NCBI GenBank assembly: GCA_033065855.1
Contig: JAVXUO010002070.1
Coordinates: 1-64,000, forward strand
Origin: Escallonia rubra
Lineage: Eukaryota; Streptophyta; Magnoliopsida; Escalloniales; Escalloniaceae
DNA length: 64,000 nt
Reading direction: 5' to 3'
Shown here in pieces: positions 1 to 17,569 of the stretch. The position numbers and the translations under genes are program-made. Under the pieces are notes generated by a model. That model had not been told where the DNA came from. It saw nothing but the letters and a program-made list of their open reading frames with translations, and searched no databases. Within the stretch, counting starts at the first letter, position 1. Each line of letters starts with the position of its first letter.

Positions 1-1783
1 GGTCGAGGTCCGAATTTTGAGGTGCCTGATGCCTTGAATTTGCTGAGCGACGAGGTGCAACAGTGGAATACTTGGCAAGAAACGTATGGTAGCCTTGTAT
101 CGCTCAAGGACGACGGCACCAGTACTGAGGATTACCTGTGTGGTTTCTCAAGGTGACGCGCACGAGGGTGAATCGCCCTTCCCAAGTGAGGAAGACATCG
201 TACGCGCCACGTGAGGTCTATGACCAGTTCTGGGCATTGAGCATTGTAAGTCAACTCTAGTGTTGTTTCAATATTTAATTTTGCACCTTCCCGACCATGC
301 TTGAAATGATGACGGTGATTTTTTTATGCATTTTTTTAGGTTGACCAGGGCACTAAGGTGTTCAAGCAGTTTGACTGGTATGTCGCGCATGCGCCTGACA
401 GTCTCAAGAGCTCCATTGAGAGGTACAAGACTGATCTTCACAACTTTAGTCTTGCGTACCGGGGTTACCAAGGGGAGCCGTCTAGTGGCTTGCCTCCTGA
501 CGCGTACGGCTCTCACCAGCCAGAGTCATGTGTGGGAGCCGTCTAGTGGCTTGCCTCCTGACGCGTACGGCTCTCAGCCCGAGAGTCAGGTGTGGGAGCC
601 GTCTAGTGGCTTGCCTCCTGACGCGTACGGGTTTCAGCCCCAGAGTCAGGTGTGGGAGCCGTTTAGTCGCTTGCCTCCTGACACGTACGACTTTGTGCCC
701 CAGAGTGAATTCTGGGAGCTGTCTAGTCGCTTGCCTCCTGACGCGTCTTTGCCCCAGAGGGAATTCTGGGAGCCGTCTAGTCGCTTGCCTCCTGACACGT
801 ACGACTCTCAGCGCCAGAGTCAGGTGACCCAAGTAGGAATCCAGGCCTCGCGCCCAAGCAACCGGTCGGATAAAGGACAAGCGACAAAGCCATTGAGGCG
901 ATGGAAGCGGGATTGGATCGACCGGCACTACTTCGGGCCTGAGCCTGTCGATTCAACAGACTTTCCTCTTGGAACATTGCTAGGTCACACGGATGTGAGA
1001 ATGTTGGCACCGGAGACAGATATTTCAAATTTTGTCATGAACGCTTATATAGATCTGCTCCGGATTAGAGAGCTACGTTATAACAAGTGCGAAGATTTGA
1101 AGCTTAACATGTATCCCACTTATCTTGTCCCATTAATGGTGACCAGCATGAGGGAGTTCACAGAATCGAGGAGGCGAGGGGCAGGCATGGGTAAGTGGAA
1201 ACCAGCTGGAAACTTGTTAGCTCTGTTGACCGCAGACTATCAATGTCACGCTGCTCATGCGAACCTTGTCATGATACCTTGCCATCATGAACACCACTGG
1301 TTCCTATTAGTTCTCTATCCAGCGAACAGAGCGGTCAACATATACGATAGCCTACGGGAGGACTCTCACTTTCGGTCGCTGGCACAGATATATAGCGAGT
1401 ACATCACTGCAGTGGTTAGTTTTTATCGGTTCACCTTGGCTCATAGTATATTCTTATTGTAACATATATTGATGACCTTTTTTTATTGTTGGATGCAGAC
1501 TACTATCTTCTCGCTAGCGTGCCGAGATTATTCGGGGGAATCCATCACCAGGAATTTGACGGTAGAGCCTTGGACGGTCGAGATGATACAGGACCGACCA
1601 AAGCAATATAACAGTCATGATTGCGGGATTTACGTCCTCAAGTACATGGACTACATTGCTCGGTCGGAGGTGCTCAAATATAAATGGTGGACTAGGAAGG
1701 CTGCCTTGACGTTTAGGTATAGGATAGCCTGGGAGCTGAAAAAGAATGAAGCTAGACGCCTTAATTACCATTATCCTAACTAG
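1..1783 (+). pseudogene. Ulp1-type (C48) cysteine peptidase gene carried by a Mutator-like element; 5' truncated by window, frameshifted
   Basis: Catalytic part of a Ulp1/SENP-like SUMO-protease-fold peptidase. Exons inferred from splice signals and phase: coding before 245, then 340-1414 and 1499-1783; the introns are 246-339 and 1415-1498 (84 bp, phase 0). The peptidase triad is visible: His in HHEHHWFLLVLY, Asp in IYDSL, then after the intron Gln in RPKQYNSHDCG and Cys in HDCGIYVLKYMDY. A proline-rich spacer made of 20-residue repeats precedes the domain. Two frame problems exist: one near position 150 and one inside the first repeat (unit of 61 instead of 60 bp), so the gene is probably non-functional as it stands. 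It converges on the MULE transposase at 2631-4937. Plant MULEs that captured Ulp1-like genes (Kaonashi/KI-MULE type) are known, and this arrangement fits them. The domain assignment is firm; that both genes belong to one element is inferred. Confidence 0.85.
475..829 (+). repeat. Coding minisatellite, 60-bp unit, six copies
   Basis: Units begin at about 475, 536, 596, 656, 716 and 770. Spacings are 61, 60, 60, 60 and 54 bp. Each unit encodes about 20 residues of the type WEPSSGLPPDAYGSQPESQV. The 61-bp first unit shifts the reading frame; the 54-bp unit keeps it. Confidence 0.9.
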
Positions 1784-1784
1784 A

Positions 1785-2500
1785 GTGGCTAAGGTGCAAT
1801 GAGCAAAGAACCCCTGAAAAAAATGTACATAATTTTTTTATTGTTGCTATGAATTTGGCGATACAGTGTGCACGAATATTAATACATTATAGGATTTTCA
1901 AAAAAATTATTTGTCTCGATTTTCGCCGAAATTCATATATATGGCCTACTAGCGTGCCTGAGGTGCAATGAGCAAAAAAGAAATGACAAAAAAAATTACG
2001 AGATTTTTCGGAAGCTATGAATTGGGCCCTAAAGTGTGCCCGAATAGGCCTTCCATAGGAAAACCCAAAAAATAACGTGTCTCGTATCTTGCCGAAATTC
2101 TTACGAATGGGCTAACTACCGTGCCTGAGGTGCAATGAACAAAAAAGAAATGACAAAAAAAATTACGAGATTTTTCGGAAGCTATGAATTGGGCCCTAAA
2201 GTGTGCCCGAATAGGCCTTCCATAGGAAAACCCAAAAAATAACGTGTCTCGTATCTTGCCGAAATTCTTACGAATGGGCTAACTAGCGTGCCTGAGGTGC
2301 AATGAACAAAAAAAAGTGACAAAAAAAATTACGAGATTTTTCGGAAGCTATGAATTGGGCCCTGAAGTGTGCCCGAATAGGCCTTCCATAGGAAAACCCA
2401 AAAAATAACGTGTCTCGTATCTTGCCGAAATTCTTACGAATGGGCTAACTAGCGTGCCTGAGGTGCAATGAACAAAAAAATTTACAAGATTGTTCAGAAG
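1785..2500. repeat. 167-bp tandem array between convergent Ulp1 and transposase genes
   Basis: The motif GTGCCTGAGGTGCAATGA recurs at 1954, 2121, 2288 and 2454, giving a period of 166-167 bp. A diverged first unit starts at 1785, one base after the Ulp1 stop codon. The inner copies are nearly identical and the outer ones are diverged. There is no coding potential. The remaining 130 bases to the transposase stop codon show nothing recognisable. Confidence 0.9.
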
Positions 2501-2630
2501 TATTGACGGCGCGAATAGTCCCTTCCAAAAATATCAATAATCCACAAACCAGATCAGAAATTAAAGATTCAACAAACCAAATCACAAATTTATGCTCATT
2601 ATAAAAGTTATTCGTTATACAACTGAAACA

Positions 2631-4937
2631 TTAACCCCAAAACTCTTCATCATCATCGTCCTCCTCGACCATACTGCCAGGTTCGAGACCTAACACTTTA
2701 TAATGGTTTCTCTTGTCATGATCAGTCATCTTATTACACAACGCACACTTTCGCAATTTTTTTTGAGCCGTTGGTTTTTCAATCGGATTCTTCATGCGTA
2801 TTTCTCGTTTTCGCCCTTTTGTTTGTGCAATAATTGGATCAAAAATGTCGTCCTCCTCACCTTGCATGCTAGTGCCGTCAATGACTGGCTGTTTGGCTCG
2901 ATTGAATCTACCGGCTGGAGTCGTCCGAGTAGTCGGAGTGTCCCGTATTTCTGGATCAGCCATCCTAAACTCCACATGCTTAGCCTTATCCCGTGCGGCT
3001 GCTTCAACTTGATACCTGTACCCATCAAATGTTGACGCTGCATCCATTGATAAACCGTGCATGATGTTACAAAGGTGATTATATCGCAGCGTCTCAGATT
3101 GCTCGAAATCAACTGAAACATTGGGCACGTAAGGAATGTGACCGTGGACTCTATTGGCTTCCTTCGTCCACCGGGCCAAGATATACTGTGGAGGGATTTC
3201 ACGAGCATTCTTGGAGCTCAAAACCCTCAACGCGTGTCGACAAAGTATACCTTTATGCTCAAACAATTGACAGTTGCAATTTACCAACCCGGTGTCCATA
3301 CATTTAGCAACGGTAAAATGTCTTCTGTTCCTCGGAGTCGACGAAGAGCACGGATTGGCGAAATTCGTCACGTTTGTCAAAGCATAAACCTTGAGATCTC
3401 TGGTGGAATACTCGGGCAACTTTGTCATGCCATATTGATTAGACTTTAGTAGTTCATTCTGAAACTGTCTAAACATTTCCTTGGTATAGACTTGAGCCGC
3501 ATGAACCTCCAAAGGTGAAAAGAGTAGTATGGCTCTTTCCCTGTAAACTGTAGCCGCGTCGGCTTCTCTCTCACGGTACAATTGCCTATCAACGGCTTTC
3601 TGCATCTCTAGTACGAACTCCACTATACTTGAAGACTGGCTTACGTACCCATCAAAGAATGAATTCATAGCTTCGCTTCTCGAGGTCGTGGTCATTCCGG
3701 CTGCAAAAAACTTCTTGGTGTAGGCACCGACCCACTGTGTCTTGATCGCATACAACGATTGTAACCAGGCATGATTGTGCAAATTGTAGTCATCCATTAA
3801 CGTGGCCCACCTCTCCTCGAACACGTCTACCGTCAACGATTTCTTCACACATGTATTAAAGTCAGTCTTGAATTCCGGATGGTTTGCATATAGATTGTGA
3901 AGTCGTTCGGGATATTTGTTGCTTATGTGCCACGTGCACAGTCCATGGTGAGTATCTGGAAGGACCTTAGCGATTGCATTTTTCATTGCCAGATCTTGGT
4001 CGGTGATGATGGTCTTTGGAGGAATATGATACATTGCTTGAAGCCACGTTTCAAATAACCACGTAAATGACTCCTCCGTCTCATCCCTAAGCAGGGCAAA
4101 GCCAAACGAGATTGACTGATAGTGGTGGTTCACCCCGGTGAACGGAGCAAAAGGCATAGAGTACTTATTGGTGCGGTATGTGGTGTCAAACGTCACAACA
4201 TCCCCAAAATTTTGGTAAGCAGCTCTAGAACGGGGGTCCAACCAAAATATAGTACTAATGCGGTTCTCATCATCCAGTTGGAGACTGTAGAAAAATCCAG
4301 AATTCTCACTCTGAAGGCACCTGAAGAGATCAAGTGTAGCTTGAGAATCACTCCTACCGAAAGACTCTCTCTTCTGAGCACGAAGTTCATTTCGAAGGTC
4401 TACTTCGTTGAAACTCAACCTGTCAATCCCCCCAGCCTGGCTTGAGAAAACCCCCATCATCTTAGAAGGTGGAATTTTAGCCCCGGCCATTGTAAAAATC
4501 AGTTGTCTGTGTGCCGCGCTAATTTCTCGGTGTTGATGAATTTGACCAATCTTACTGGGGGTCATCAACTGATGATTATGACTCAGATCTACTCCCGTCA
4601 CAACCCAATGGTTTTCTCTTTTCCGGTGTACTGCATACACATGGGCCTTGCAGCCGGTACCCGAAAATGTGTCGCGTTTTCGTTGTCTTGTTGTCCCTTC
4701 GTCACTGATCGGAACGACCGGGGGTACATGCGGTGCCCCTCTATGACACTCAAATAGTCTTGCACAGATTTGATCTGTACTCACCCGTTTTCGACTCGTC
4801 TTAGTTCGAATACCGAAACCCATCGTTTTCGAATATGCTCTGTAGTATGCTTCAATTTCGTCCAGTGTTTGAAAAATTTGACCCAAGTAAGGTGGATCAG
4901 AACCTTCACAAAAATTGCTTCCTCCAGTTGCATCCAT
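2631..4937 (-). CDS. MULE/FAR1-type transposase, apparently full length (768 aa)
   Basis: Transposase of a Mutator-like DNA element, a nuclear enzyme cutting and joining element ends. One uninterrupted reading frame. Domains in order: FAR1-type N-terminal DNA-binding domain about residues 20-125, with Cys and His residues spaced as in that family; MULE transposase domain about 235-430 with the expected acidic triad, Asp251 in FDTTY, Asp313 in IITDQD and a likely Glu422 in SRSEAMNSF, plus the C..H motif GLCTWH (334, 337); SWIM zinc finger at 554-568 (CNCQLFEHKGILCRH); then a C-terminal C-x2-C segment near CALCNKMTDH and a very acidic tail. This is the size and order of MURA-like and FAR1-derived proteins. 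The gene faces Ulp1 at its 3' end and a 311-bp array at its 5' side, so I read it as an element-borne transposase and not a domesticated FAR1/FRS factor. Intactness suggests recent activity. No terminal inverted repeats were identified. Confidence 0.93.
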   Translation of the reverse strand: MDATGGSNFCEGSDPPYLGQIFQTLDEIEAYYRAYSKTMGFGIRTKTSRKRVSTDQICARLFECHRGAPHVPPVVPISDEGTTRQRKRDTFSGTGCKAHVYAVHRKRENHWVVTGVDLSHNHQLMTPSKIGQIHQHREISAAHRQLIFTMAGAKIPPSKMMGVFSSQAGGIDRLSFNEVDLRNELRAQKRESFGRSDSQATLDLFRCLQSENSGFFYSLQLDDENRISTIFWLDPRSRAAYQNFGDVVTFDTTYRTNKYSMPFAPFTGVNHHYQSISFGFALLRDETEESFTWLFETWLQAMYHIPPKTIITDQDLAMKNAIAKVLPDTHHGLCTWHISNKYPERLHNLYANHPEFKTDFNTCVKKSLTVDVFEERWATLMDDYNLHNHAWLQSLYAIKTQWVGAYTKKFFAAGMTTTSRSEAMNSFFDGYVSQSSSIVEFVLEMQKAVDRQLYREREADAATVYRERAILLFSPLEVHAAQVYTKEMFRQFQNELLKSNQYGMTKLPEYSTRDLKVYALTNVTNFANPCSSSTPRNRRHFTVAKCMDTGLVNCNCQLFEHKGILCRHALRVLSSKNAREIPPQYILARWTKEANRVHGHIPYVPNVSVDFEQSETLRYNHLCNIMHGLSMDAASTFDGYRYQVEAAARDKAKHVEFRMADPEIRDTPTTRTTPAGRFNRAKQPVIDGTSMQGEEDDIFDPIIAQTKGRKREIRMKNPIEKPTAQKKLRKCALCNKMTDHDKRNHYKVLGLEPGSMVEEDDDDEEFWG

Positions 4938-5039
4938 ATTTATACTGAAATCTATAAAATAAAAATTATATCATTCTCAACAAGTCAAAGAATTAAGTAA
5001 AAGAAGAATAAAAATTATTTAAATGTAATTCAGTTACAG

Positions 5040-7850
5040 ATTTGTATAATGTAAAATTACCAAAATAGCCCCCGATGAGCTGCCCCCTGGCATCAGAAAA
5101 ACTGAATAGTTTTTTCAAACGACTTTTAAACACACCTCTCATCACAACTTTAAAATAACTTTTCGGGTGTCTCACACCCTTTCCTGAACTAAAAGTCATT
5201 CGGAAAATTTGTATAATGTAAAATAAGGAAAATAGCCCCCGATGAGCGGCAAATTACCGAAATGGCCCGGGGTTCATTATGACCCCAACGCCCAGCGAAT
5301 CGGCTTCAAATCAGCCGTCGCTAGGGTTTGCTTACATTTACGGACTGGAAAGACATTCGAAAATGTTGACAGCGTGAAATTACCAAATTACCCCTCTCGG
5401 GCGGCGAATTACCAAAATGCACCTAGCATCGGGAAAAATCTCAAAAGTGCTTTAAGATGCTATTGTAAGGTTGCTGAGTTCATCCTTGATCTAGAAAGCA
5501 TTTTAGGGATTTTTCGTCAAAAAATCCCGAACCGGTGTCCGGATCGAGCGCTTAAAAGCCCGTTCGGCAAAAAAATTGCTACCGGCTTCGGAATGGCCCG
5601 AATTCGTGGGGAGTAACCCTAGCCGCCTTCGCTAGGGTTTGCTTACATTTACGGACTGGAAAGACGTTCGAAAAAGTTGACAGCGTAAAATTACGAAAAT
5701 ACCCCTCTCGGGCGGCGAAATACCAAAATGCCCCCTGGCATCGGGAAAAATCTCAAAAGTGCTTTAAGACGCTATTCTAAGGATGCTGAGTTCATCCTTG
5801 ATCTAGAAAGCATTTTAGGAAATTTTCGTCAAAAAATCCCGAACCGGTGTCCGGATCAAGCGCTTAAAAGTTGCATAGGCAAAAAATTGCTACCGGCTTT
5901 GGAATGGCCCGAATTCGTGGGGAATGGAATTTTCCAACATCCTTAGGGTTTGCTTACATTTACGGACAGTATTGACGCTCGTAAAAGATGACAGCGTGAA
6001 ATTATGAAAATACCCCTCTCAGCGGCGAATTACCAAAATGCCCCCTGGCATCGGGAAAAATCTCAAACGTACATTAATGCGCTAGTCTAAGGTTTCTGAG
6101 TTCATCCTTGATCTAGAAAGCATTTTAGGGATTTTTCGTCAAAAAATCCCGAACCGGTGTCCGGATCGAGCGCTTAAAAGTTTCATAGGCAAAAAATTGC
6201 TACCGGCTTCGGAATGGCCCGAATTCGTGGGGAATGGAACTTCCCGCCTTCGCTAGGGTTTGCTTACATTTACGGACTGACCAGTCCAGCGAAAAAGTTG
6301 GCAGCATAAAATTACGAAAATGACCCTATCGGGCGACGAATTACCAAAATGCCCCCTGGCATCGGGAAAAATCTCAAAAGTGCTTTAAGACGCTTTTCTA
6401 AGGTTGCTGAGTTCATCCTTGATCTAAAAAGTATTTTAGGGATTTTTCGTCAAAAAATCCCAAACCGGTGTCCGGATCGAGCGCTTAAAAGCCCGTTCGG
6501 CAAAAAGTTGCTACCGGCTTCGGAATGGCCCGAATTCGTGGGGAATGGAACTTTCCAACATCCTTAGGGTTTGCTTACATTTATGGACTAAGCAGTCATT
6601 CAAAAAAGTTGAAAGGGGCAAAATTACGAAAATACCCCTATCGGGCGGCGAATTACCAAAATGCCCCCTGGCATCGGGAAAAATCTCAAAAGTGCTTTAA
6701 GACGCTTTTCTAAGGTTGCTGAGTTCATCCTTGATCTAAAAAGCATTTTAGGGATTTTTCGTCAAAAAATCCCGAACCGGTGTCCGGATCGAGCGCTTAA
6801 AAGCCCGTTCGGCAAAAAGTTGCTACCGGCTTCGGAATGGCCCGAATTCGTGGGGAATGCAACTTTCCAACGTCCTTAGGGGTTCCCTAAATTTATGGAC
6901 TAAGCAGTCATTCAAAAAAGTTGAAAGGGGCAAAATTACGAAAATACCCCTATCGGGCGACGAATTACCAAAATGCCCCTGGCATCGGGAAAAATCTCAA
7001 AAGTGCTTTAAGATGCTTTTCTAAGGTTGCTGAGTTCATCCTTGATCTAGAAAGCATTTTAGGGATTTTTTGTCAAAAAATACAGAACCGGTGTCCGGTA
7101 CGGGCGCTTAAAAGCGCGTTCGGGAAAAAGTTGCTATCGGCTTCGGAATGCCCCGAATTCATGGGGAATGGAACTTTCCAACATCCTTAGGGTTTGCTTA
7201 CATTTATGGACTAAGCAGTCATTCAAAAAAGTTGAAAGGGGCAAAATTACGAAAATACCCCTATCGGGCGGCGAATTACCAAAATGCCCCCTGGCATCGG
7301 GAAAAATTTCAAAAGTGCTTTAAGACGCTATTCTAAGGTTGCTGAGTTCATCCTTGATCTAGAAAGCATTTTAGGGAATTTTCGTCAAAAAATCCCGAAT
7401 CGGTGTCCGGATCGAGCGCTTAAAAGCCCGTTCGGCAAAAAATTGCTACCGGCTTCGGAATGGCCCGAATTCGTGGGGAATGGAACTTCCCGCCTTCGCT
7501 AGGGTTTGCTTACATTTACGGACTGAAAAGGCGCTCGAAAAAGTTGAAAGGGGCAAAATTACGAAAATACCCTTCTCCGGCGGCGAATAACCGAAATGCC
7601 CCCTGGCATCGGGAAAAATCTCAAAAGTGCTTTAAGACGCTATTCTAAGGTTGCTGAGTTCATCCTTGATCTAAAAAGCATTTTAGGAATTTTTCGTCAA
7701 AAAATTCCGAACCGGTGTCCGGATCGAGCGCTTAAAAGCCCGTTCGGCGAAAAATTGCTACCGGCTTCGGAATGGCCCGAATTCCTGGGGAATGGAACTT
7801 TCCAACATCCTAGGGTTCTCAAAAAAGTTTCGCGCGAAATCGCGCTAGCT
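5040..7850. repeat. 311-bp tandem array (eight units) upstream of the MULE transposase
   Basis: The landmark ATGC(C)CCCTGGCATCGGG or its variant recurs at 5417, 5728, 6038, 6349, 6661, 6973, 7284 and 7596 (spacing 310-312). A diverged unit precedes it at about 5040-5240, where an ATTTGTATAATGTAAAAT segment is itself repeated (about 5040 and 5209). Each unit contains AGGGTTTGCTTACATTTA or a variant, which includes a telobox-like AGGGTTT. Open frames of about 72 codons recur in each unit, but the unit is not a steady multiple of three and I do not call them genes. The array lies just 5' of the transposase start and probably belongs to the same element's subterminal region. Confidence 0.9.
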
Positions 7851-8400
7851 TGATATTTTAAATTACACTGCGAAGTTACAAGGTTGCGCGTATCAGTTAA
7901 CCCCTTTCCAGTATTTGGAAAAATCTGAAATTTTTACCTGATACAGATCTTTTAAAAATAACTAGGGTCTATTTTTTGTACTTTGGCAAAATCTAGCTCT
8001 AGATATTTTTTATAAATTCGTGAAAAATCATAATTTTGACGCCCTAAAAAATCGCTATTTTCGAATCTTTCGAATGTAATACCCCGATTTGTAAAAACGT
8101 AATTTTGACGCCCTAAACACGAATTTTAGACTATGGTAAGAACAATTTAAGCGTAACAACAATTTAAATTAACATTGAATTATAAGAAAATTCAAAATAC
8201 TTACTTGTTTTGACTTGAAAAAAATGACGAAGAAATCCACCGATCTTCTTCTAGCGGTTATCCACCGATCTTCTAGCGTAAAAAAAATTTCGCTCGTATT
8301 GTTGTGGAGATTATGTATGTGAGATAGGGAGAATGATGAGAGTGTAAGAAATAATTCGGGGGAAGAGGGTTTTTATAGACAGAAAAGTGAGCCGTGGGAG
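7851..8400. other. Non-coding stretch, probable distal end of the MULE
   Basis: AT-rich, with no gene seen. It contains short direct repeats (ATTTTGACGCCCTAAA at about 8036 and 8103; CCACCGATCTTCT at about 8238 and 8261). Subterminal direct repeats are common in plant DNA elements, but the element end itself could not be fixed because the other end lies outside the window. Confidence 0.4.
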
Positions 8401-8735
8401 GGGGGGGGGCAACTAATGTTTTGCCATGTGTCGAAGAGGGGTGTGGGCCAAGACATGGGAGGAAATTTTGGGAGGAGGAAAAGATGGGGTCTGCCGAAGG
8501 GGGGTGGGGGCCTAGGGAGGAAAAATGACAAGTGGGGAGGGGGGGGAAGAGGGGTGGGGGCCAGGGGGGAGGGGGGTTACTGCCGGGTGGAAATTCGGGT
8601 GAGGGGGGTGGGGGCCGGGGGGGGGAATCTGCCGAGCGGGGTGGGGGCCAAGGGAGGGGGTGGGGACACGTGGGGGGGGGGGAGAGAGATGGGGGCCACG
8701 GGGAGAGGGGTTACTGCCGGGGTAAAGGGTAAAGG
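8400..8735. repeat. G-rich, purine-biased low-complexity tract
   Basis: Many runs of 4-11 consecutive G on the + strand, ending in GTAAAGGGTAAAGGGTAAAGG. It could form G-quadruplexes. It gives spurious long frames on both strands (for example 107 aa + and 137 aa -), which I do not consider genes. Confidence 0.8.
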
Positions 8736-8749
8736 GTAAAGGGCCAGGG

Positions 8750-8935
8750 TAATTGGCCTTGGGCCAATCGCATGAGTGTCCAAAGCCAATCGCCCGAAAG
8801 TCAAGCGATTGGCTTTGGGCCAATCGCGTGAGAATCATGCGATTGGCTTTGGGCCAATCGCTTGACTTTCGGGCGATTGGCTTTGGGCCAATCGCGCGAC
8901 TCTCATGCGATTGGCCCAAGGCCAATCGCCCCTCC
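8750..8935. repeat. Cluster of nested inverted repeats built on GCCAATCGC / GCGATTGGC
   Basis: A perfect 29-bp inverted pair occupies 8785-8813 and 8853-8881. The 39-bp loop contains a second, shorter inverted pair (GCCAATCGC...GCGATTGGC). Further copies of the 9-mer flank both sides, up to AAGGCCAATCGCCC near 8925. The block can fold into stacked hairpins or a cruciform. No protein or known transposon was recognised. Confidence 0.85.
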
Positions 8936-9049
8936 TTTTGGCCAGAAATGGCCCAGTCCAGCTAGCTTTTTTTTTTTTAATGCAATCGCTCGACTTTCTA
9001 GCGATTCAGTGGGAATTTTTTTTTTCCCACCGGTGGGTGTGTATCGAAC

Positions 9050-9052
<3 letters not shown>

Positions 9053-9095
<43 letters not shown>
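9053..9095. repeat. (TA)n(CA)n microsatellite
   Basis: About 16 TA dinucleotides followed by five CA dinucleotides. The flanking bases on both sides show nothing else. Confidence 0.95.
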
Positions 9096-10375: not shown

Positions 10376-11911
10376 TGTTGCCGAGGAAAGATGGTATGTT
10401 GCCACTTAGAGGTGCCACAAATGATGCAGTCTAAGTTGGCTTCCAAGTAGATAAAGTGGGAGACAGCAAGGATGGAGTAAGGGCTGAGAGCAAGGCTCCC
10501 CAGGCAGGTCGCGAGGGCTGGCAGCGCCGCGTCAGCAGGGAGACGACGAACAGGGGCGACAGTCAACAACCAACAGTCCACGTCAAGGGTGCAGCGCCAA
10601 TGATCCAACGTCAGGAGGTGGAATGTCTTTCTCTCACTAGAAATCCAGAGAGAATGGGTTTTAGAGAGAGAAAGTGAAAATGCCAAATGAAAGAGAAGTC
10701 ATTGAATAAGATCCTAAGTCCACTATATATAGACACAAATGCGCGCTTGTCATCAGCCGACACATGTCGTCCTCTGGGAGTGACACGTCATCGTCAGAGG
10801 TCCCACAGTATTGATTGTCCGTCGAATTTCCGGTCCCTGAGTTCGTGATGCCCTGCTCTTGCAGAGTCCCTCTGCCTGTCTGAGGAGACTGACCACACCG
10901 CGGTAGCATGGTCAGAGTAGCCCGTTGCCCCAACCTCCAGTCCAAGCCCTTACTGAATCCCACGAGATGCGTCAAGAGACGCGCGGAGATCCTGACAGCG
11001 GTGAAGGTTGCCCATGTAGTCAACTGCCAGGCGGACTAGGCGCGATGCCCTCCGAGGACCTGCTCCCCTCCCGGAGTGACCCGGGGGTCATTGCCCTGGC
11101 GGTGTCGATGATCGATGGCAACATGAGCGTACATGCTCACAGCTCGATACACAGAGTCCGTGGCGAGGGGTCCTCGTGCCGGAGCACTACGAGCGGAGCC
11201 CCTCGTGAGTCCGTCGGGTGATTGTGCCGGTGATGGCCTTAGGGTTGTGAGCCCATCCCTATTGCGAAGGCTGGAGCCTCCGATTGATTGTGACTGCGAG
11301 GGCCGGAGCCCGTCGGTTGATTGTGCCGGCGAGGGCCTTAGGGTTGTTGCGGCAACGATGTGCGGGCGACAACAGGCGTCATGCGACCACTGGTGATGAG
11401 TGAGCATTGCAGAATGCGTTGAGTGAGATGATAGTAGAGGCAAGTAGGTTCCCTCCGCCAAAGATAGGGGTGGCCGACCCCTTCCAATGAGGGTGGCCGA
11501 CCACCTTCCAAGGAGGGTGGCCGACCCCCTTCTAAAGACGGTGGCTGACCCCCCTTCTCAGGGGTGTGGCCGACCCCCCTTCTCAGGGGTGTGGCCGACC
11601 CCCCTTCTTAGGGGTGTGGCCGACCCCCTTCTCAGGGGTGGCCAACCCCCTTCTCAGGGGGGTGGTCGACCCCCTTCTCAAGGGTATGGTCGACCCCCTT
11701 CTTAGGGGGGTGGCCGACCCCTTCTCAAGGGGATGACCGACCCCTCAGGGGAATCTACACTTTGAGTTTGATCGACGTCCTGATGCTCAAGGCACAGAAC
11801 GCTTTGATCGACTAATGATGTTGAGAAATTTTGACTAACAAGCGGGTGACATGTTGTGTAATAGGGGTCCCTTAGAGGGCCCTAGGGTGCGGTCCAAATA
11901 TGTTGTGAACA
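10376..11911 (-). repeat. 3' LTR (left) of the coding-free element
   Basis: 1536 bp and highly similar to 16061-17569. Between 11465 and 11750 it holds a run of about 24-bp GTGGCCGACCCCCTTCTCAG units, about a dozen copies, more than in the other LTR. The outer end carries TG at 10376; the inner end is at 11911. Confidence 0.9.
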
Positions 11912-16060: not shown

Positions 16061-17569
16061 CGTTGCCGAGGAAAGAGGGTCTGTTGCCACGTCGAGGTGC
16101 CACACAGGATGCAGTCTGAGTTGGCTTCCAAGTAGACAAAGTGGGAGACAACAAGGATGGAGTAAGGGCTGAGAGCAAGGCTCCCAAGGCAGGTCGCGAG
16201 GGCTGGCAGCGCCGCGTCAGCAGGGAGACGACGAACAGGGGCGACAGTCAACAACCAACAGTCCACGTCAAGGGTGCAGCACCAATGATCCAACGTCAGG
16301 AGGTGGAATGTCTTTCTCTCACTAGAAATCCAGAGAGAATGGGTTTTAGAGAGAGAAAGTGGAAATGTCAAATGAGAGATAAGTCATTGAATATGATCCA
16401 AAGTCCACTATATATAGGCACAAATGCGCGCGTGTCATCAGCCGACACGTGTCGTCCTCCGGGAGTGACACGTCGCCGGAGGGGGTCCCACAATATTGAT
16501 TGTCCGTCGAATTGCCGGTCCCCGAGTTCGTGTCGCCCTACCTTTGCAACATCTTTCTGCCTGTCTGAAGAGACTGACCACACCGCGGTAGCATGGTCAG
16601 AGTAGCCCGTTGCCCCAGCCTCCAGTCCAAGCCCTTACTGAATCCCACGAGATGCGTCAAGAGACGCGCGGAGATCCTGACAGCGGCGAGGGTTGCCCCT
16701 GTAGCCAACTGCCAGGCGGACTAGGCGCGATGCCCTCCGAGGACCTGCTCCCGTCCCGGAGTGACCCGGGGGTCATTGCCCTGGCGGTGTCGATGATCGA
16801 TGGTAACATGAGCGTACATGCTCACAGCTCAATTTTTAGATTCCGTGGCGAGGGGTCCTCGTGCCGGAGCACTACTAGCGGAGCCCCCCGTGAGTCCGTC
16901 AGGTGATTGTGCCGGCGATGGCCTTAGGGTTGTGAGCCCATCCCCGTTGCGAAGGCCGGAGCCTCCGGTTGATTGTGCTGGCGAGGGCCGGAGCCCGTCA
17001 GTTGATTGAACCGGCGAGGGCCGGAGCCCGTCGATTGATTGAGCCGGCGAGGGCCGGAGCCTGTCGGTTGATTGAGCCGGCGAGGGCTTTAGGGTTGTTG
17101 CGGCAACGATGTGCTGGCGACAACAGGCGTCACGCGACCACTGGTGATGAGTGAGCATTGCAGAATGCGTTGAGTGAGATGATAGTAGCGGCAAGCAGGT
17201 TCCCTCCCCCAAAGACTGGGGTGGCCGACCCCCTCCTAAAGAGGGTGGCCGACCCCCCTTCTCAGGGATGTGGCCGACCCCCTTCTCAGGGGTGTGGCCG
17301 ACCCCCTTCTCAGGGGGGTGGCCGACCCCCTTTTCAAGGGTGTGGCCGACCCCTTTCTTAGGGGGGTGGCCGACCCCCTTCTCAAGGGGGTGGCCGACCC
17401 CTCGGGGGGAATCTGCACTTTGAGTTTGATCGACGTCCTGATGCTCGAGGCACGAAGCGCTTTGACCGACTAATGATGTTGAGCAATTTTGACTGACAAG
17501 CGGGTGACGTGTCGTGCAATAGGGGTCCCTTAGCGGGCCCTGGGGTGCGGTCCGAATAGGTTGTGAACA
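16061..17569 (-). repeat. 5' LTR (right) of the coding-free element
   Basis: 1509 bp. Read leftward it begins TGTTCACAACC, has GTGGCCGACCCCC minisatellite units (17219-17405, about eight copies), then a TATATATAG promoter-like box near 16409-16418 and a CT-rich leader ending at 16061. This layout (U3, R, U5) supports the minus orientation. Its first inner base is C where the other LTR has T. Confidence 0.9.

Follow-up and report, generated by a model that had tools for sequence, protein, structure and literature searches.

Several described Mutator-like elements (MULEs) each share part of their organization with the element reported here, which lies at the start of a 64,000-nucleotide stretch of Escallonia rubra contig JAVXUO010002070.1 (C270:1-64000; hereafter the window). 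MuTAnT and AutoMuTAnT of Medicago (PMC4486113) and the SaTar-type MULEs of guayule and rice, including Micron (PMC5907723), insert into TA microsatellites, as this element does. AutoMuTAnT has a Jittery-like transposase and the MuTAnT search mask starts with GGGGTT, the same as the ends found here, but AutoMuTAnT is 4.9 kb long with one open reading frame, and the part of its description consulted mentions neither a second gene nor arrays in the terminal inverted repeats (TIRs) (PMC4486113). A Ulp1 domain is shared with KIU/Kaonashi and other Ulp1-bearing MULEs (Arabidopsis VANDAL, melon, rice and grapevine; PMC2528002; PMC13317346); what such domains do in plant MULEs is reported as unknown (PMC13317346), and a grapevine figure legend also allows for genes in opposite orientation. 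KIU (Ulp1-VANDAL) elements are described as non-TIR MULEs, whereas the present element has long TIRs, an N-terminal plant mobile domain (PMD) and a TA target. In VANDAL21 and VANDAL6, as here, tandem repeats lie upstream of the transposase and in introns, and a second protein, VANC, carries variable tandem peptide motifs, with copy-number change between copies (PMC5735166); VANDALs differ in their degenerate TIRs (PMC10398659). PMDs captured by MULEs in grasses and Amborella (PMD-C) are fused to the transposase, whereas the PMD here belongs to a separate gene and is fused to Ulp1 (PMC5418596). Maize MuDR has two genes, as here (PMC4486113), and MULEs with multiplied TIRs are already known (PMC3310237).

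Each trait, namely TA targeting, a Ulp1 gene, a PMD and multiplied TIRs, is known separately. A PMD, a Ulp1 and arrays combined in one TA-targeting TIR MULE had no record in the literature searched; as that literature covered few subscription journals, the negative is a weak one. The family described here is compact, young and present in many copies, and it brings a PMD and a Ulp1 peptidase together with arrays at fixed places.

Judged by its sequence, the element is a MULE with two convergent genes between long inverted repeats, and we are close to certain of the anatomy described below (Table 1). A first-pass annotation of positions 1..8400 had proposed a Ulp1-bearing MULE with convergent genes and two tandem arrays; this is borne out, both arrays being part of the element in all 11 copies read, and the stretch then considered was too short, as the element reaches 9052. 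The 11 copies are that in the window and 10 fetched from the 566-Mb assembly, the 10 being drawn from 17 other loci scored. The window begins at the first base of contig C270, so that the left part of the element is absent from it; about 4.5 kb more was read from contig C1449, on which the element is 13,588 bp long with ends at contig positions 1273 and 14860 (terminal-motif matches). The two copies match at 99%, including about 1.2 kb of right flank, and are therefore probably alleles. Left of the Ulp1 gene, C1449 positions 5107-8275 (oriented coordinates) correspond to window 5944-9086 inverted, at 90%, which gives terminal inverted repeats of about 3.1-3.7 kb and places the 312-bp array within them. 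The leftward extension that the annotation had called for thus revealed long inverted repeats around both genes and both arrays; within the window alone none was evident among the longest 25 of 76 pairs viewed, because the left end lies outside it. From left to right, element-piece probes gave the same order across the 11 copies: TIR end, leader, conserved segment, 312-bp array (inverted), PMD-Ulp1 gene with a 60-bp array, 167-bp array, transposase (minus strand), 312-bp array, conserved segment, leader and TIR end. This order was traced in copies some of which are partial, as C1654 has no right TIR in the stretch read, C2824 contains an N run and its left TIR was unseen, C95, C1899, C474 and C2694 are each cut on one side by a contig end, and several TIR-end probes fell under the length threshold.

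The predicted transposase is, as annotated, an uninterrupted 768-codon frame, with FAR1 (E=1.2e-14), MULE (PF10551, E=6.9e-33) and SWIM domains all above Pfam cut-offs. A DNA-binding domain of the FAR1 type is one of the features expected of Jittery-type MULEs. The frame is complete in 10 of the 11 copies, including the window, and has an early stop in C474. Its ratio of nonsynonymous to synonymous divergence (dN/dS) is 0.50 (NG86, ratio of means; 45 pairs, C474 left out), a figure that, like the other dN/dS ratios given here, is lowered by the choice of mostly intact copies. Across the assembly, 58 of 4678 candidate transposase loci were scored; all are near full length and 95-100% identical, and 43 of the 58 are without a stop. 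Some of these contigs are probably alleles (C270/C1449; C1116/C818), so independent insertions are fewer than loci. The family is, by these sequences, young, many-copy and probably still mobile.

The second gene had been described as a captured Ulp1. A C48 peptidase is indeed present, but it is only the end of a larger gene, and the idea of a captured Ulp1 alone was dropped because the C1449 copy encodes a 911-aa fusion of a PMD (residues 72-421, E=6.5e-71), 20-aa tandem repeats and a C48 domain (residues 691-894, E=3.7e-17). In C1449 the gene has four exons of 732, 630, 1089 and 285 nt, GT-AG introns and 911 codons before the stop. The PMD is a clear match and DUF7745 is above cut-off, while DUF1985 is a weak match (27.9 bits against a cut-off of 35.1). 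Positions H, D, Q and C of the C1449 protein align with human SENP2 and SENP5. We take these to be the catalytic residues of C48 peptidases; with exons 3 and 4 of the window together giving Peptidase_C48, an intron-containing Ulp1 with an apparently full catalytic set stands as first described. Exon 3, the length of which differs among genomic copies, holds a third array beyond the two annotated, coding and of 60 bp x 6.0. In the window the frame is broken at two places relative to C1449; since the window starts at a contig tip and the gaps between the two copies are bunched there (15 gap columns in the first kilobase, 0 in 1-5 kb), assembly error is possible. Exon landmarks are complete in 8 of the 10 fetched copies, with the frame open to the stop in four (C1449, C95, C1654 and C474) and not in C1116, C16, C1899 and C2694. 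The dN/dS is 0.36 for the PMD (NG86; 10 pairs, 5 copies) and 0.29 for C48 (NG86; 6 pairs, 4 copies).

The annotation had also placed a 311-bp array upstream of the transposase. The array is there, but its period is 312 bp and it is not one-sided: 312-bp arrays lie inside both inverted repeats in mirror orientation, each between a TATA promoter with splice donor and the start codon of a gene. All 15 inverted-repeat stretches that were aligned (8 right, 7 left) have TATAAAA and the donor GTAAGT without any change. Farther out than the TATA box, subfamilies differ in sequence (C1590, C474, C1899 and C2694 carry another version). A splice-acceptor sequence stands directly before the start codon of each gene. 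From these signals, both genes are probably read inward from near-identical TIR promoters, with the 312-bp array in the first intron of each transcript. The two MuDR genes are reportedly convergent and read inward from TIR promoters, as proposed here; MuDR is said to differ in having short TIRs without such arrays and a mudrB that is not a PMD-Ulp1.

We favour an account in which each inverted repeat supplies a TATA box, a short leader, a splice donor and then the 312-bp array, both genes would be transcribed inward and the arrays would be spliced out within the first intron of each transcript. The PMD-repeat-Ulp1 protein, with its variable tandem peptide repeats, would be the likeliest array binder; once bound, it would keep the promoters unsilenced, as VANC does on VANDAL tandem repeats, perhaps by taking SUMO off silencing factors. 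As for the 167-bp array, multiplication of a 3' untranslated region (UTR) would have produced it, and it would buffer convergent transcription. As a best explanation taken whole, from anatomy and leader-intron promoters to array platform and PMD-Ulp1 anti-silencing, we give this account an even chance. Its parts differ in strength. That a protein encoded by the element docks on the TIR arrays at many closely spaced sites seems to us evenly poised between true and false. That PMD-Ulp1 acts against silencing on them in a VANC-like way is a tentative suggestion by analogy, which we think somewhat unlikely. It is doubtful that the element holds a second, independently assembled anti-silencing system, in which a fused PMD, peptide repeats and SUMO peptidase would recognize the leader-intron arrays and protein and DNA repeats would co-evolve as in VANC/VANDAL.

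VANC proteins combine DUF1985 with tandem peptide motifs that vary, and the tandem repeats that they target lie upstream of VANA and within the introns of VANB and VANC; in VANDAL21, enrichment of VANC21 is seen over introns and over intergenic and terminal non-coding regions (PMC5735166). By analogy, the positions of the arrays here (both leader introns, between the 3' ends, and as peptide repeats in the second protein) appear to match the VANC21-enriched and VANC-variable places. MAIN and MAIL1 are genic PMD proteins that act in transposable-element silencing, and an anti-silencing role for MULE-captured PMDs has been suggested, as tempting speculation (PMC5418596); genic PMDs fused to a protease are mentioned as well (PMC7156037). 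It is on account of the VANC-like array positions, the PMD of MAIN/MAIL1 and this published suggestion that we rank PMD-Ulp1 on the TIR arrays first. The array order is, as far as readable, the same in other copies, and the TATA box and donor are invariant while the outer sequence varies, both of which favour the account. Also in its favour are the arrays on both sides in C1449, the placing of the outermost unit 1029-1341 bp from the end in 21 paired clusters, the PMD and C48 matches of the second gene with its weak DUF1985 match, and the dN/dS ratios of both genes among copies.

Several observations weigh against it. MULE tandem repeats and long TIRs have been named as sources of small interfering RNAs and as silencing targets (PMC10398659), so that the arrays could equally be a liability for the element. 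Homology of the second protein to VANC is at best the weak DUF1985 match, the score of which lies below the curated cut-off. PMD-Ulp1 is open in only 4 of the 8 copies with all landmarks, and is interrupted in the window. The motif AATTAC[GC][AG]AAAT occurs 14 times in window 1-9052 and 0 times in the remaining 54,948 bp, but enrichment within a tandem array is a trivial result of tandem duplication. A single binder for both arrays is unsupported, as the 312-bp and 167-bp units share short words only. Finally, a derivative on contig C1968 retains inverted repeats and arrays without PMD-Ulp1 and without the 167-bp array; therefore neither is needed in cis. Were the account true, the element would pair a host-silencing domain, a SUMO peptidase and satellite arrays in one anti-silencing system, and the natural series of array copy numbers, together with derivatives lacking either gene, is a ready set for asking whether arrays plus second gene counter silencing.

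The annotation had called the two arrays unrelated, which holds with a small reservation: 12 8-mers are common to the consensus 312-bp and 167-bp units, where shuffles average 4.06 (2 of 300 shuffles reach 12), a weak signal, and we did not retain a common motif of the two arrays. Window 7818-8420 likewise shares slightly more 8-mers than expected with the 312-bp array (22 against 13.7; 10 of 200 shuffles reach it) and with the 167-bp array (14 against 7.6; 13 of 200 shuffles), and at 10-11 bases there is no excess of words shared with either array.

In the copies read, both arrays travel with the genes, as the annotation had proposed to check. Each of the 11 has a 167-bp array separating the two genes and, to one side or both, 312-bp units, and no transposase copy lacking both arrays was met among them; a derivative with a partial transposase and no 167-bp array exists. 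Two derivatives of 5-7 kb were read. L049, the one on C1968, retains 1.66 kb of transposase and carries 312-bp units at each end, and gave no match to the Ulp1 probes or the 167-bp unit. L050 (C159) has short TIR arrays, PMD-Ulp1 pieces and the 167-bp array, and gave no transposase match. Among the copies read, the TIR arrays persist throughout and the 167-bp array accompanies the interior. These derivatives, each of which keeps 312-bp units at both ends while missing one gene, suit an explanation in which multiplication of the TIR arrays would have given the transposase (FAR1) more sites to bind and so aided synapsis of the ends, the Ulp1 being incidental. The presence of arrays in both inverted repeats, in mirror orientation and at a similar distance from the end in 21 paired clusters, agrees with this, and tandem TIRs have been discussed as helping MULE amplification (PMC3310237). 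Promoter and leader nevertheless stand between the arrays and the ends, which are 1.0-1.3 kb away, and a side may have anything from 2 to 13 units; we consider transposase binding unlikely.

Variation within the arrays bears on a further possibility, that they are neutral by-products of slippage or gap repair, tolerated in introns and the 3' UTR. Both arrays are in non-coding places and vary freely in copy number among the copies read, with 2-13 312-bp units per side and 2-9 full-length 167-bp units. Mean identity of 312-bp units is 0.936 within the same array, 0.935 between opposite TIRs and 0.923 between copies; since these values are similar, strong concerted evolution within the arrays is absent. 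Between the window and C1449 there are 48 mismatches in 5500-7500 (2 kb, in the 312-bp array) against 14 in 1000-5000 (4 kb), an excess of allele divergence in the array that reflects either fast array change or an assembly effect, and that would suit neutrality. Against neutrality, all 11 of the copies read have the arrays at the same positions, and every side scored has two or more 312-bp units, although recent common origin could also explain this. We regard neutral origin as a minority possibility.

The 167-bp array was annotated between the two 3' ends. It is there (1901-2479, period 167, 3.5 copies, 95% matches), but its true start is earlier, at 1776, where a degenerate first unit opens within the last codons of Ulp1, seven bases short of its final base. 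Window 1700-1900 aligns with the 167-bp unit at a score of 65 against a shuffle maximum of 25 (500 shuffles), and the first-unit match begins 6-7 bases before the Ulp1 end in 11 of 11 copies. On the position of this unit and its alignment score, the 167-bp satellite is, as read from the sequence, an amplified Ulp1 3' end comprising the last codons, stop codon and 3' UTR. The birth of a satellite is thereby visible, with the source copy still adjoining. That the unit includes the Ulp1 stop codon and 3' UTR, and that at 19 of 25 loci a gap of 222 bp separates the array from the transposase stop, would fit a transcription terminator or insulator between the convergent genes. The VANDAL precedent is one of protein binding, not termination, and L050 retains the 167-bp array without a transposase match, and a terminator or insulator seems to us rather improbable.

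Matches across the assembly bear on whether free satellites in the genome arise from the element. Of 1496 candidates for the 312-bp unit, 40 were scored, and the matches listed contain 41 clusters (contig plus strand). In 21 of these clusters an exact element end is paired with the array, the outermost unit lying 1029-1341 bp inside it. The other 20 are unpaired, 10 of them on contigs with all exact ends listed, which would favour seeding; one of those 10, C1116, proved on reading to carry a near-exact end. Scoring covered 40 of the 807 candidates for the 167-bp unit, and the matches listed fall on 39 contigs; 25 have a scored transposase beside the array, 19 of these at exactly 222 bp, and 8 of the remaining 14 also have 312-bp units. 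On contig C1401 (15440-21416), the listed 167-bp units span room for about 36 units (6 kb) and adjoin a transposase with one stop. That span likewise speaks for seeding, and for the free copy-number variation expected under neutrality. No free array was identified among the matches listed from the candidates scored, and given that 21 of 41 clusters keep the usual spacing to an end and that the transposase adjoins the array on 25 of 39 contigs, we consider seeding very improbable.

Table 1. Features of the MULE and its target site in the window
Feature	Position	Strand	Basis
Window portion of MULE (right two thirds)	1..9052	.	Allele match, inverted-repeat ends, terminal motif
PMD-Ulp1 exon 2, end	1..245	+	Exon structure taken from C1449
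PMD-Ulp1 exon 3 (20-aa repeats, first part of C48)	340..1414	+	Window sequence, Pfam Peptidase_C48, C1449 structure
Coding tandem array, 60 bp x 6.0 (20-aa peptide repeats)	473..826	+	Tandem Repeats Finder (TRF); inside Ulp1 gene
PMD-Ulp1 exon 4 (rest of C48, stop codon)	1499..1783	+	Pfam Peptidase_C48
167-bp array between the two 3' ends	1776..2479	.	TRF 1901-2479 plus degenerate first unit overlapping Ulp1 stop codon
MULE transposase, 768 aa, FAR1 + MULE + SWIM domains	2631..4937	-	Open frame, Pfam
Predicted leader intron of transposase, holds 312-bp array	4945..8204	-	Sequence; donor 8204, acceptor 4945 or 4952
312-bp tandem array, 8.0 units, 90% matches, inside inverted repeat	5321..7817	.	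TRF
Conserved start of leader intron	7818..8204	-	91-100% identity in 15 other inverted-repeat matches, one cut by contig end
Predicted untranslated leader exon, common to both genes via inverted repeats	8205..8347	-	Start inferred from TATA box
TATA box TATAAAA	8371..8377	-	15/15 aligned inverted-repeat stretches
34-bp palindromic tandem repeat, outer part of inverted repeat	8785..8929	.	Tandem-repeat and inverted-pair scans
Terminal motif of inverted repeat	9026..9052	+	268 exact genome matches, reversed control 0
(TA)17 target microsatellite abutting element	9053..9086	.	Tandem-repeat scan, end reading

The terminal pattern comprises 27 places and its exact matches were used to read the insertion sites. 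A perfect TA heptamer lies beyond 234 of the 268 exact ends (TATATAT 103, ATATATA 131). Of the first 15 ends read, 14 abut TA runs and that of C474 an imperfect TA-rich stretch; the next 20, the first in list order without TATATAT, are all TA-rich, L039 weakly. The family is found in TA microsatellites.

The annotation had proposed looking for a 9-11-bp target duplication. None is directly visible, because the element sits in (TA)n, but the phases of the ends suggest an odd length in most elements. Within (TA)n, an even duplication or none leaves the same phase at both ends, read outward, and an odd duplication leaves opposite phases. We paired ends on contigs up to C2208 (87 of the 103 and 98 of the 131) together with 15 other exact ends on contigs up to C1119; beyond C1119 ends without the heptamer are unlisted, so that a few of the resulting 45 pairs may be wrong. 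Both ends have the perfect heptamer in 39 pairs, of which 32 are in opposite phase and 7 in the same, against 49% opposite expected for independent ends (P=2.4e-5). The end phases fit the usual 9-bp MULE duplication. Weighing against an odd duplication, C1449, the probable allele of the window copy and one of the 7, is same-phase, as is C1116, which is outside the 39. By size, the 45 paired elements fall into 1.7-2.7 kb (3), 4.4-7.6 kb (27), 10.2-13.7 kb (12) and 17-21 kb (3).

With the C1116 flanks joined across the TA run as query, no empty site was found: the matches were the C1116 locus itself and the occupied C818 locus, its probable allele, and the other 38 of 41 were 74-79% matches to part of the right flank. 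Downstream of the first element at L028 (C2694) lies another copy, apparently deleted, that faces the first across one TA run; it has a TIR end, one 312-bp unit and PMD-Ulp1 pieces, and gave no transposase probe match in the stretch. Another repeat, with the end GGGAGCTGATC in small variants, abuts the far side of TA runs that host this element (C1449 left flank, C2824 right flank, L032, L041 and L044), and is perhaps a second TA-targeting family clustered with this MULE, as in SaTar arrays.

Farther out in the inverted repeat, the 34-bp repeat consists of GCCAATCGC units that can fold back, and similar sequence is present in other copies. Further along the window, 10377-11911 and 16062-17569 are direct repeats of 87.6-89.5% identity; the roughly 5.7 kb separating them includes GC-rich tandem repeats. 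By sequence, the pair looks like the long terminal repeats (LTRs) of an LTR element.

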